Shown here: positions 21,010 to 25,148 of the stretch, in pieces
Layout of the letters: each line of letters starts with the position of its first letter
How positions within the stretch are numbered: the stretch's first letter is position 1
NCBI GenBank assembly: GCA_003527555.1
Contig: DPWT01000025.1
Span: 1-25,271, forward strand
Direction: 5' to 3'
Source: Verrucomicrobiales bacterium
Lineage (GTDB): Bacteria > Verrucomicrobiota > Verrucomicrobiia > Verrucomicrobiales > Akkermansiaceae
DNA length: 25,271 nucleotides
The notes under the pieces: generated by a model
Database searches by the model: none
What the model saw: only the letters and a program-made list of their open reading frames with translations
What the model was told of the DNA's origin: nothing
Made by a program: the position numbers and the translations under genes

Positions 21010-21786
21010 ATGAAATACATACGTCCAAATATGGCATTAACATGTGCCACAATCCCACTACTTCTGGCCATGCCGGCATCAGCCGCGATCACAACGAGTT
21101 TCAATGTAGACCTTAGCCCCGACGCTCAGAATTTTGCTGTCAACTCCACTGATGCATTTCAACTCGATTACTCGATCGGCGGCACGGGTATCGTGTCATT
21201 GAACGCAGTAGCGTCGACAGGCGGTCCCGCGAGATGGGATCAAATTGACAACGCGAGCGCCGGAACTACAGCATCGGTGGCTTTGTTTAATACTTCTTTC
21301 ACTCTAACATACTCAGGAACAGCGAATGCTCTACTTGCTTACAACCCCAACTACGGCAACGCCGGAACTGGCGCTGTTTTGTCAACTCAAGGGCAGTCTA
21401 ATTCGAACGTCTTGGAAAATGGTGAGTCCATCACATTCACTGTCAGTGGTACTGCGACTGCAGTCCCGGGTTTCTCCTTGGACTTGAATAGCTTCTCCTA
21501 TGACCTCCGTCTTGCTAATGGTGGATCTTCTTTCGGCGTTCAAGACACGAGTAACAATGTGGTCGAACAGCTCATCCCGAACACATCGCTTTTCGGCACT
21601 ATTGATGGCACCGGAATCTCCCTGGGAGCTGGTGAAGCCATGACCTTCCGCACGATTGCCGGCAACGCAGGTGGAGCAGGATTGACAGGATTTGAATTTG
21701 ATGTATCGGCTGTCCCCGAGCCTTCATCCACAGCCCTCCTTGGTATGACTGGAATGCTTGCACTTCTTCGCCGCCGTCGCGGTTAA
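21010..21786 (+). CDS. PEP-CTERM sorting-domain surface protein
   Basis: This is a 258-residue exported protein. The signal peptide runs to about residue 25 (LLLAMPASA), then a beta-rich Gly/Ser/Thr/Asn-dominated domain fills residues 27-232. The end is a classic PEP-CTERM tail: VPEPSS (235-240), a hydrophobic helix TALLGMTGMLALL, and RRRRG. Such tails are recognised by exosortase-type transpeptidases, and the proteins usually become surface or extracellular-matrix components; no exosortase gene is in the window. The beta-rich domain is homologous to two modules of the next protein (for example LDYSIGGTGIVSLNA, LFNTSFTLT, GFEFDV). The gene ends before a strong terminator, so it is transcribed separately from the sulfatase. 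Its ligand is unknown. Confidence 0.88.
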   Translation: MKYIRPNMALTCATIPLLLAMPASAAITTSFNVDLSPDAQNFAVNSTDAFQLDYSIGGTGIVSLNAVASTGGPARWDQIDNASAGTTASVALFNTSFTLTYSGTANALLAYNPNYGNAGTGAVLSTQGQSNSNVLENGESITFTVSGTATAVPGFSLDLNSFSYDLRLANGGSSFGVQDTSNNVVEQLIPNTSLFGTIDGTGISLGAGEAMTFRTIAGNAGGAGLTGFEFDVSAVPEPSSTALLGMTGMLALLRRRRG

Positions 21787-21831
21787 TTTACCGTACCGAC
21801 AAGGGGCTTTAAACCAAGCCATCCTTTTACG

Positions 21832-21864
21832 GCTCCCGTCCGGCAACAGACGGGAGCTTTTTTT
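21832..21864 (+). terminator. intrinsic terminator after the PEP-CTERM gene
   Basis: A perfect nine-base stem, GCTCCCGTC (21832-21840) with GACGGGAGC (21849-21857), an eight-base loop and seven T residues (21858-21864). It lies 24 bases before the next gene's ATG, so that gene needs readthrough or a promoter inside or very near the terminator. Confidence 0.93.
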
Positions 21865-21887
21865 GCCAAAAATCTTTTACCATTAAG

Positions 21888-24800
21888 ATGAAATTGCTCA
21901 ATCCGAAGCTCCTCCGAACCGCTACCCATATGTTTAGCGGGGCTTGCTGGCTCACCATAGCCGCACCCGCATTCTCAGCGGTAGAAGTAGACTTCGCGCA
22001 TTCCTATACAAGTGGCGGTAGCGCTACCCAGAATACCGGTGACATTACACTTGCCTTTACGGTCGATGGTTCGGGTAATGTCACCCTTGATGCATCTTCT
22101 GCCGACACCGATCCAGCCGCCTACGTCAATGAGTTTGATGGCTCAGTTGGCACGGTAAGCGACACTGCCATGTGGGGTCAGAGTTTCACCATTGTGCTTT
22201 CTTCCACCGGTGCAGGCAATTTACGGATCGACAACACCGGCAGTGGGCTCGCCGTTCAAGGCGGCAATTCCCAACTCATTGATGCCACTCCAGCCGCAGT
22301 TAACGAAGTGATCACTGCGACGGTTACAGCTTCGGGAACTCAGTTTAATCTCTCGGGTGTCGATTATGCCAAGCTGTCAGGCGGCATCGGTATGAACGTC
22401 TCAGGCACCACCTACACTCTCACCGGCAGCAGCGGTTCAGCCGATGTTTCGGCTCAAGGTGTGACTGGTAACTTCACCATCGCTTCGACCAGCAGTGCGG
22501 CTGGTCAAGGATTCGTAATCAGTGGATTTAGTTTTGATCTAACTGGTTCACTATCCGCCTCTAATGTAGTGGTAAGTTTTGCTAACAGCGGAACCGGCTT
22601 TGGAGATCCTACGGATGCCCGCACTATTCCGTGGGTGCCTTCGGGTGGCGCCGCTTACGCCATTACCCTAGACTTCTCGATTGATGGAGCCGGCGTGGTA
22701 TCTCTTGATGCTTCCACCACCGCCACGGAGCCTTTATTCCAGAATATGGTAGCCGAATGGGATAATGCCTCAGTCGGCTCAGTGGCTGATCCTGCTTTGT
22801 TAAATCAATCCTTTACTTTAACAGGAACAAGAGCTGGTGGGGTAGGTGGTCTAACCATCACCGAAAACAATGGCGGAGGCATCGGCGTGCAGGGTGAAAA
22901 CTCGAACCGGGTTGATGGCTTAAACTACGGCGCAGGCGGCACGACTTCCACTCCCGAAACACTGACATGGACGTTGAGTGCCCCTGTGGGAATCATCCTA
23001 AATTTGGTCGATTGGTCACATGCGGACGGTGCCAACGGCGACATTCAGGTTTCAGATGGAACCACAGATAGCAACTTCCTTAACCTATCAGGAACGTCTG
23101 GAAGCAATACCTTGACCAGCCTGACCCTCTCCAATGGCGACTCGTTGAACTTTCGGGAAATTCCTGGTGTTGGCCTGACTACTGGCGCAGCGATTGGTGG
23201 CTTCACCTTTGCGATCGCTGCTCCTCCTGTTTTCGATAACGACTCAGGCGATAACCTCTGGACCACGGCATCGAACTGGAAATCCAACGTTCTCCCGACC
23301 GCCCCAAACGATGCTATCATCGATGGCTTCGATGTGATTCTGAACAGTCCAGTGGCAAGCGGACCAGCGGCGCTGAAGATTTCAGACGGTTCCTTAACTA
23401 TTCGTGACACGGGCACTATTTCGATAGCATCCATGAACATTGGAAATAATCTGGAAACGCCCATCGAACTAATTCTCGAAGGCTCAACGGCCTCCCTAAG
23501 TCACACCGGCAGCGGAGTGTTCACAGTCGGAAGCGCTTCCTCCGTCATTACTATCCCCGACAACGGTGGCAGTAGTCCCCTCGAACTAGACAACGGCGAA
23601 CTAGTGCTAGAAATCGGCTACCAGTGGATTCTTGACGGTAGTGACTACACAGGAACCTACACTATCGGGGACCAATTTGTGCTCGCCAATTTTGGCACCC
23701 TGATTGGACCTAGTTTCGGCAGCGGTAACGAAGACGGTTTTTCCGATACCGCCGGCTTCAGAACACGCAATTTCGACCTGCCAGCGAACCGCAAACTGCA
23801 ATTGGTAAAAACGGCAAGTTCCATCTACTACGAAGTGGTCGCACAGACCGCTGCCACCGGGCCTAACATCATCATCATCAATGTCGATGATATGGCAGGC
23901 GGTCAGCATTTCAATTTCGAGGGACGCGACTGCATCACGCCGACTCTTGACACGCTGGTATCCAGCGGGCTTCGCTTCACCTCGGCCTCCGCCGCCTCGA
24001 CGGTATGCGGACCATCGCGCTACGCGCTCCTGACCAGCCGCTGGGCATCGCGCAATACCAGCGCGCAATTTATCGCCCACTATCCGCTCGGAACGCTGGG
24101 TCGTTTTGCCGTGGCCGACACCGAGCTTGAGTCCGACAATCAGAACCTCGGTGCTTGGCTGCAGCAGGCGGGTTACCGCACCGGCATGGTCGGCAAGGGA
24201 CACTTCACAGACGACGATCTGAACCAGACCACCAACTGGTCGGTTAAGGGACTGCTGACTTATCCCTCGAACGCCGATCCTAAGACTGACGCCACCACTA
24301 ACGCGAAGATGCAACACAACCACCGCGTCCTTTGCCAGCGTATGCGCGCCTTTGGTTTTGATTACGTCTCCAGCTACTACAAAGCGAACCTCGCAGAACT
24401 CCGCAACGATGCGCTCAACGTGCACAACCAGGAATGGATCACCAAGGGTGCTCTCGACTTCATCGAGGAAAACCACGACGAGCGGTTTTTCCTCTACATG
24501 GCACCAACTATCAACCATGGGCCGGTGCGCAACGACCTCAGCAAGACACTCGGTGCAGACAATAGCTACACCAGTGCCGGCTACCTCCCGAACGAGGACT
24601 ACTCGTTCATGCCCACACGTCAGGCCATCATTAACGAGGTGAACAATGGGGGCAAAGAACTGATTTCAGCCCGTGAAACTTGGCTAGATTACTCGGTCCA
24701 AGCTATCGTCAATAAACTGACTACACACGGCATCCGGAATGACACGCTGATCATTTTCACCTCCGACCACGGCGAGAAGGATCTAAATTCGACTCGTTCT

Positions 24801-25148
24801 GGACAGGGGCCAGTGGTCTGGGGGAAATCCTCGCTCTACGACCTCGGCATGAGGGTGCCGTTAGTGATGAACTGGCCGAATGGCATCACCTCACCGGGGC
24901 GCAGTTATGATGAAATTGTTAGTCACGTCGATATCGCTCCTACCCTGCTCGCGCTGACCGGTGCATCGAGCTTGCCGACCCGTCTGGTCGACGGCGTAAG
25001 CCTGGTATCGATAATCAACGGCGGCAGCACTGCAGTTCGCCAAGACCTTTTTGCCGAGGTCGGCTACGCCCGCGCCGTCCGCACCAAGGACCGCAAGTAC
25101 ATTGCCGTGCGCTATACTCCTAGTGTCTACACCCAGATTAGCAGGTGA
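21888..25148 (+). CDS. secreted multidomain sulfatase with two beta-rich N-terminal modules
   Basis: The protein has 1086 residues. A signal peptide (to about residue 31) leads into two homologous beta-rich modules (residues 32-218 and 226-444) that also match the PEP-CTERM protein upstream. Next is an autotransporter/PEP-CTERM-style stretch (DNLWTTASNWKSNVLPTAPND, from 455) and more beta structure to about 655. The sulfatase domain follows: metal-binding IINVDDMAGG (Asp667, Asp668), the formylglycine site CGPSR (Cys707-Arg711), GKGHF (Lys770, His772), INHGP (His877), TSDHGEKD (Asp960, His961) and LGMRVPLVMNWP. It would need a formylglycine-generating enzyme, and probably removes sulfate from an extracellular polysaccharide; iduronate-sulfatase-like relatives are the best match. 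The frame ends just after RKYIAVRYTPSV, without the usual LYDL...DP.E C-terminal region, so the 3' end may be truncated. Confidence 0.85.
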   Translation: MKLLNPKLLRTATHMFSGACWLTIAAPAFSAVEVDFAHSYTSGGSATQNTGDITLAFTVDGSGNVTLDASSADTDPAAYVNEFDGSVGTVSDTAMWGQSFTIVLSSTGAGNLRIDNTGSGLAVQGGNSQLIDATPAAVNEVITATVTASGTQFNLSGVDYAKLSGGIGMNVSGTTYTLTGSSGSADVSAQGVTGNFTIASTSSAAGQGFVISGFSFDLTGSLSASNVVVSFANSGTGFGDPTDARTIPWVPSGGAAYAITLDFSIDGAGVVSLDASTTATEPLFQNMVAEWDNASVGSVADPALLNQSFTLTGTRAGGVGGLTITENNGGGIGVQGENSNRVDGLNYGAGGTTSTPETLTWTLSAPVGIILNLVDWSHADGANGDIQVSDGTTDSNFLNLSGTSGSNTLTSLTLSNGDSLNFREIPGVGLTTGAAIGGFTFAIAAPPVFDNDSGDNLWTTASNWKSNVLPTAPNDAIIDGFDVILNSPVASGPAALKISDGSLTIRDTGTISIASMNIGNNLETPIELILEGSTASLSHTGSGVFTVGSASSVITIPDNGGSSPLELDNGELVLEIGYQWILDGSDYTGTYTIGDQFVLANFGTLIGPSFGSGNEDGFSDTAGFRTRNFDLPANRKLQLVKTASSIYYEVVAQTAATGPNIIIINVDDMAGGQHFNFEGRDCITPTLDTLVSSGLRFTSASAASTVCGPSRYALLTSRWASRNTSAQFIAHYPLGTLGRFAVADTELESDNQNLGAWLQQAGYRTGMVGKGHFTDDDLNQTTNWSVKGLLTYPSNADPKTDATTNAKMQHNHRVLCQRMRAFGFDYVSSYYKANLAELRNDALNVHNQEWITKGALDFIEENHDERFFLYMAPTINHGPVRNDLSKTLGADNSYTSAGYLPNEDYSFMPTRQAIINEVNNGGKELISARETWLDYSVQAIVNKLTTHGIRNDTLIIFTSDHGEKDLNSTRSGQGPVVWGKSSLYDLGMRVPLVMNWPNGITSPGRSYDEIVSHVDIAPTLLALTGASSLPTRLVDGVSLVSIINGGSTAVRQDLFAEVGYARAVRTKDRKYIAVRYTPSVYTQISR

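Follow-up and report, generated by a model that had tools for sequence, protein, structure and literature searches.

In the polysaccharide utilization loci (PULs) of Bacteroidota, SusD and other surface glycan-binding proteins hold glycans at the cell surface; they are anchored as lipoproteins and encoded together with the degrading enzymes. PEP-CTERM proteins are numerous in bacteria of the Planctomycetes-Verrucomicrobia-Chlamydiae (PVC) group, and to our knowledge few of them have a passenger of known function. Degradation of diatom sulfated mannan has been shown for Bacteroidota, and that study (PMC13063451, 2026) describes an S1_51 mannan sulfatase of marine Bacteroidota (OpSulf1 / PbSulf1-GH195), presented as the first described S1_51 activity and fused to or encoded with GH195, a glycoside hydrolase (GH) family called distantly related to GH99. 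Here we analyze a stretch of 25,271 nucleotides from a Verrucomicrobiales bacterium of the family Akkermansiaceae (contig DPWT01000025.1, positions 1 to 25,271; hereafter the window), in which a module of about 190-220 residues occurs once in a PEP-CTERM surface protein and twice in the sulfatase encoded downstream of it. The copies are homologous and spread over several protein architectures, and in two lineages their genes are linked to a single type of sulfatase. With about even confidence, we read the module as a new family resembling carbohydrate-binding modules (CBMs), through which the enzyme and a surface protein of the exosortase type would meet on a common polymer, in all likelihood sulfated alpha-mannan. 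The features of the locus are as follows.

21088-21705, plus strand: module copy 1, residues 27-232 of the PEP-CTERM protein (pairwise alignment and profile)
21981-22541, plus strand: module copy 2, residues 32-218 of the sulfatase (pairwise alignment and profile)
22566-23216, plus strand: module copy 3, residues 227-443 of the sulfatase (pairwise alignment and profile)
21010-21786, plus strand: gene of the PEP-CTERM surface protein, 258 residues, whose N-terminus (residues 1-26) looks by its sequence like a signal peptide
21709-21780, plus strand: PEP-CTERM sorting tail, residues 234-257 (PF07589, TIGR02595)
21831-21864, plus strand: intrinsic terminator between both genes, a 10-bp stem and a T tract
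21888-25148, plus strand: S1-type sulfatase with two N-terminal modules, an open reading frame (ORF) of 1086 residues, from Pfam
23862-24965, plus strand: sulfatase domain PF00884, residues 659-1026 (E = 7.7e-44; best solved relative 9FVT)
24006-24020, plus strand: CGPSR, the presumed formylglycine site (C-x-P-S-R) of sulfatases, read from the sequence

A first-pass annotation, made from the letters of the window, had described an apparently undescribed module present three times in two adjacent secreted proteins, one copy with a PEP-CTERM tail and two ahead of a sulfatase domain. This arrangement was confirmed: both ORFs and all the landmark strings it quoted are present in the translations at 21010-21786 and 21888-25148, and a profile seeded with the three copies returned practically the same boundaries (27-232; 32-218 and 227-443). 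BLASTP aligned copy 1 with copy 2 at E = 7e-6 (31% over 113 residues), copy 1 with copy 3 at E = 3e-10 (31% over 210) and copy 2 with copy 3 at E = 4e-16 (40% over 153). The local alignment score of each pair was equalled by none of 2000 shuffles, with z values of 7.4, 11.4 and 14.0, respectively. Profiles built from two copies recognized the third with 36.2, 33.5 and 52.9 bits, and the best shuffles reached 11.8, 7.1 and 7.9 bits (2000, 2000 and 1996 scored). The copies thus stand well above shuffled sequence in both the pairwise and the leave-one-out comparison, the check that had been proposed for them, and chance similarity of low-complexity beta-rich sequence is rejected. Searches of the assembly that contains the window (2.2 Mb, 77% complete), with copy 3 as the query and with a profile of 12 copies, yielded these three copies and no others.

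The module is also undescribed as far as the searched libraries go, since no Pfam-A or NCBIfam model scored above its cut-off on the three segments. Above cut-off, Pfam recognized in the pair just the sulfatase region and the tail of the PEP-CTERM protein, to which NCBIfam added nothing for the module, and no Pfam CBM family matched either window protein at E ≤ 10. The 12-copy profile found nothing convincing among the sequences of solved structures (best E = 0.18, an antibody-like chain), and none of the titles and opening abstract lines returned by literature searches on PEP-CTERM, exosortase, sulfatases, CBMs, PULs or mannan describes the module. That secreted enzymes carry glycan-binding modules is known; this one is unnamed in the libraries and literature searched, and, as far as literature listings go, no publication describes a module that a PEP-CTERM protein and a sulfatase have in common.

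An iterated profile detected 258 copies in 160 of 162 proteins (158 of 160 database proteins and the two window proteins). Because these proteins had been chosen for their resemblance to the window proteins, the copies show the spread of the module and are not independent proof of it. One copy is present in 68 proteins, two in 86 and three in 6; P0048 and P0049 were rejected as members because the profile detects no module in either. Solo proteins make up 47 of the 49 matches to the PEP-CTERM protein, are mostly 247-281 residues long, and carry the PEP tail in all cases except the shorter P0043, where none is visible (46 of 47). Among the matches to the sulfatase, 100 of 111 contain PF00884, with 1-3 modules preceding the sulfatase. 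In a midpoint-rooted tree of 256 copies, which omits the two of the 258 domains that are not near full length, the solo copies, 48 in number, group together in a single clade (support 1.0). Of the 85 proteins with two modules, 65 have their first copy in the clade of window copy 2 (support 0.998), and the clade containing window copy 3 holds 82 of the 85 second copies together with the remaining 20 first copies (support 0.996). The window copies are therefore ancient paralogues, and a recent duplication at the locus is rejected by the tree. The duplicated extracellular domain proposed in the first-pass annotation is real and recurs on carbohydrate-active enzymes and tailed surface proteins; it did not arise by recent local duplication.

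In genome searches, the module was found in 3 of 387 genomes of a sample of the phylum, the window's among them, and in 20 of the 195 genomes of the window's family, Akkermansiaceae. It was present in 4 of 273 genomes of the order of G703 and in 3 of 177 of the order of G512, all three of which are also among those 4. The solo protein was found in 2 of 149 Pirellulaceae genomes (the family of G701), both already known. A solo-family profile searched against 288 genomes of the window's order returned the window's own solo protein and three weak matches in long frames, so the solo protein is rare among the genomes searched. These searches scored the best candidates of each genome (up to 16 for the module in Akkermansiaceae, 9 for the solo profile in the order and for the sulfatase type, and 8 for the phylum sample), and their absences can be misses. 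Genomes with identical match coordinates were counted once each (G089/G699, G934/G1179, G940/G512 and G703/G1213).

The PEP-CTERM-borne module is genetically linked to one type of sulfatase, also in metagenome-assembled genomes (MAGs) labelled Planctomycetota, and the main evidence comes from genomes in which the two are separate genes rather than from a fusion co-occurring with itself. In two related MAGs, labelled Planctomycetaceae (G700, locus L036) and Pirellulaceae (G701, locus L037), the gene directly downstream of the solo PEP-CTERM module gene, in the same orientation, encodes a sulfatase that lacks the module. This sulfatase is the only one of the window type in its genome (E = 3e-74 in G700 and 3e-72 in G701; next matches 4e-17 and 4.5e-20), although sulfatases were matched 44 and 51 times there, respectively. 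A second genome of the window's genus (L035) has the same arrangement as the window up to its contig end (136 residues, within the first module). Eight solo loci have readable context, L039/L087 being left out as the contig ends inside the gene, and an S1_51-type or module-bearing gene comes next in four of them (window, L035, L036 and L037). The other four weigh against the shared-polymer reading: such a gene lies 7.2 kb away in G040, about 36 kb away in G1179 and on other contigs in G125, and the type is absent from the genome of G702. Within Akkermansiaceae, the sulfatase type (E ≤ 1e-55) was found in 24 genomes, 19 of which also have the module; the lone module genome without it is one whose contig breaks inside the gene. 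The five genomes with the sulfatase type and no module are G048, G024, G034, G191 and G147, the gene of the last lying 668 bases from the contig start. In 15 of the 20 module-bearing genomes, all copies lie in long open frames (577-1798 residues) and no solo copy was found; these copies share a contig with a sulfatase domain in 13 genomes and lie on short separate contigs in two (G067 and G096).

The window sulfatase belongs to the S1 sulfatases by its PF00884 domain and its CGPSR site, which fits C-x-P-S-R, a motif that we take to be the formylglycine site of this enzyme class. From its sequence, it looks like the S1_51 enzyme that removes sulfate from diatom mannan. A comparison with Protein Data Bank (PDB) sequences placed the characterized S1_51 enzyme as by far its nearest solved relative (9FVT, E = 4.8e-93; next 7e-36). 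A similar gap was found for the full-length relative P0050 (9e-108; next 5e-34), and 9FVT was again closest to the module-free neighbour sulfatase of G701 (2e-132 versus 4e-32). OpSulf1 / PbSulf1-GH195, the closest solved relative of the window catalytic domain, is fused to or encoded with GH195; similarly, a GH99-like gene, which may or may not belong to GH195, adjoins the sulfatase in several genomes. The enzymes described here have N-terminal modules and a PEP-CTERM partner, whereas neither "PEP-CTERM" nor "carbohydrate-binding" occurs in the text of PMC13063451; the passages found there for Verrucomicrobia and Planctomycetota sit in the reference list.

GH99-like, GH92 or GH38 genes were found within about 20 kb in 12 of 22 genomes with scanned module flanks, which differ widely in length. 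Ten of these come from the stretches fetched first, and two (G185 and G033) come from extra stretches around a second sulfatase, a choice favouring such genes; the window and L035 lie outside that scan. The GH99-like genes are one family, all matching the same domain of about 385 residues. Five of them score 46.6, 33.2, 31.3, 28.6 and 26.5 with Pfam GH99 against a cut-off of 33, and two have no match. In G076, G193, G069 and G138, the GH99-like gene immediately adjoins the fused sulfatase gene and is transcribed divergently from it, and a GH99-like gene also lies within the scanned flanks of G098, G1179, G1045 and G427. In G185 and G033, it lies at a distance of 17-19 kb from the fused gene and two genes from another sulfatase of this type, one that carries no module. 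GH92 occurs in G1179, G512 and G051, and GH38 in G427 and G185. An uncounted case is G096, where a GH99-like gene stands beside such a sulfatase on a contig apart from the module. None of the three sulfatase-type loci without the module (G048, G024 and G034) has a GH99-like, GH92 or GH38 gene, and none is evident among the window ORFs, judged without a Pfam scan of the other genes on a contig that ends just after the pair.

Three different folds for the three segments, the outcome that the first-pass annotation had named as refuting, are not borne out by prediction: each was modelled as a beta-sandwich, with an AlphaFold2 pLDDT of 83.3 for copy 1, the models being compared without coordinate superposition. 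The structure alignments contained 45 sequences (the window and 44 of 49 proteins) and 64 sequences (the window and 63 of 111 proteins). CBMs were the top solved-structure matches of the models, at middling Z scores; the solved sandwiches matched by copy 1 and by copy 3 are alike in kind, and a tandem CBM22 pair is matched by copies 2 and 3 jointly. At these middling scores, the predicted fold is tentatively CBM-like. The module resembles CBM6, CBM22, CBM35 and CBM36 in its predicted sandwich fold, its tandem arrangement and its attachment to secreted carbohydrate-active enzymes. However, it is larger than the matched single CBM chains (190-220 versus about 124-159 residues), the window copies lack a Pfam CBM sequence match, and it also occurs alone on PEP-CTERM proteins. 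Across 12 diverse copies, 12 columns are invariant, including one Glu and one Asp, and one Glu is 99% conserved in the 256 copies; the conserved Asp/Asn/Glu columns might conceivably form a metal site.

We propose that the two modules ahead of the catalytic domain act as accessory binders, which would hold the enzyme on the sulfated polysaccharide. The single copy of the upstream protein, presumably fixed to the cell surface or matrix via the PEP-CTERM/exosortase pathway, would capture the same polysaccharide, so that the shared module would bring cell, polymer and enzyme together. The endo-sulfatase could then open the chain for a GH99-like endo-mannanase and GH92 or GH38 mannosidases. If the module binds another sulfated polymer, for example one of fucoidan type or containing uronides, the S1_51 resemblance would mislead on the substrate. 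This is somewhat unlikely in our estimate: the fusion of the module to a GH88 protein (P0160) and to a different sulfatase type (P0162) agrees with it, as does the presentation of the S1_51 activity in PMC13063451 as the first described, whereas the GH99-like, GH92 and GH38 neighbours argue for mannan. We regard as unlikely that the module is a generic beta-sandwich of secreted proteins, a spacer or matrix block with no specific ligand. Its Gly/Ser/Thr-rich composition, its occurrence with PATR, TSP3 and Big_5 and in T9SS-tailed proteins, and the middling fold scores would fit such a building block, but its tie to one sulfatase type and to glycan-active neighbours and its invariant columns with the acidic residues would not. 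Direct docking, in which the anchored copy would bind the sulfatase copies by protein-protein contact instead of through a shared glycan, would account for the same module in an anchored protein and the adjacent enzyme and for the company that the solo protein keeps with the sulfatase. We consider it improbable, as the Pirellulaceae pair persists though its sulfatase has no module, most module-bearing Akkermansiaceae genomes keep their copies in long frames with no solo copy found, and the predicted fold resembles CBMs.

In a fuller version of the shared-glycan reading, the module would be the first member of a new family of carbohydrate-binding domains, and the solo PEP-CTERM protein would be a new kind of exosortase-displayed surface glycan-capture protein of Verrucomicrobiota and Planctomycetota, dedicated to sulfated alpha-mannan and working with an S1_51 sulfatase that took up the module in some lineages. 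It would then be the PVC counterpart of the surface glycan-binding proteins of Bacteroidota, alike in proposed role and different in that PEP-CTERM takes the place of lipoprotein anchoring. We put this forward tentatively, as a possibility well short of even confidence. When a PEP-CTERM passenger is found again in an enzyme whose substrate can be guessed, it offers a handle on whether exosortase display serves polysaccharide capture, and the locus points to a possible role of PVC bacteria in degrading diatom sulfated mannan.

In the window, the PEP-CTERM tail scores above the curated cut-offs of PF07589 (22.6 versus 20.7 bits) and TIGR02595 (24 versus 16 bits). The C-terminal region of the protein, from about residue 171, is also common to the PEP-CTERM families NF038129 (E = 8e-6) and NF038120 (E = 7e-5), but the protein scores far under their cut-offs (25.8 versus 65 and 22.8 versus 80 bits). 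The spacer between both genes (21787-21887) contains a hairpin stem at 21831-21858 followed by the T tract (fold -20.1 kcal/mol, z = -3.0), with no Rfam match at this stretch. This arrangement suggests that more of the surface protein than of the enzyme may be produced. Spacers similar to that of the window were found in L035 (8775-8873, z = 42.8), in G098 (L059, 9835-9934, reverse, z = 22.4) and in the Planctomycetota-labelled L037 (8775-8864, z = 15.6); the similarity in L036 is faint (z = 6.0, matched by 1 of 1000 shuffles). This likeness across loci suggests that the gene pair was inherited or moved as one piece. The terminator-bearing spacer is alike in MAGs labelled to two phyla. The G098 gene at the same place (L059, 10068-10931, minus strand) encodes a PEP-CTERM protein negative with the module profile (E = 0.1), which nevertheless aligns (E = 1e-8) with the C-terminal 98 residues of its window counterpart. 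P0048 keeps both ends of the window protein, and in both P0048 and the G098 protein the middle differs. The passenger of such PEP-CTERM proteins seems to have been exchanged, judging from these alignments.

The window sulfatase differs from P0050 at 3 positions over the first 1085 residues; P0050 has 1412 residues, and the window ORF is about 326 residues shorter. The last ~125 bases of the contig (25146-25271) diverge, and no second copy was found in the assembly. The early stop is either a contig-end artefact or a real truncation. Short ORFs in L021 and L024 (G109 and G040) hold remnants that resemble module 1 of the sulfatase fusion and look like the leftovers of a decayed fusion gene; the module-like ORF of G109, 3.9 kb from the sulfatase, was rejected as a solo protein, being such a remnant. 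Next to the fused sulfatase in G069 lies a protein that resembles pilins and ends in H-X9-DG (L066, 12288-13010), and one in G138 (L069, 5360-6082) is alike by its ends.

Other architectures include the module with PATR (P0143), two modules alongside TSP3 repeats and a PA14 match under the threshold (P0121), three modules with no other Pfam match (P0153), two modules with a sub-threshold LamG-like match (P0161), and two modules with a sulfatase of another type (P0162). In P0160, the module is C-terminal in a GH88 protein with two Big_7 domains. P0163 combines two modules, Big_5 domains and a sorting tail of the type IX secretion system (T9SS), the last pointing to secretion of the Bacteroidota type. 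A module protein of G512 carries CBM6, DUF1349 and a GH42 match under the cut-off (20.2 versus 21 bits). It belongs to a cluster (L054, 3756-16864) of the module/CBM6/DUF1349 protein, a sulfatase, a GH92 gene, another sulfatase and a module protein with sub-threshold GH14/GH42 matches.
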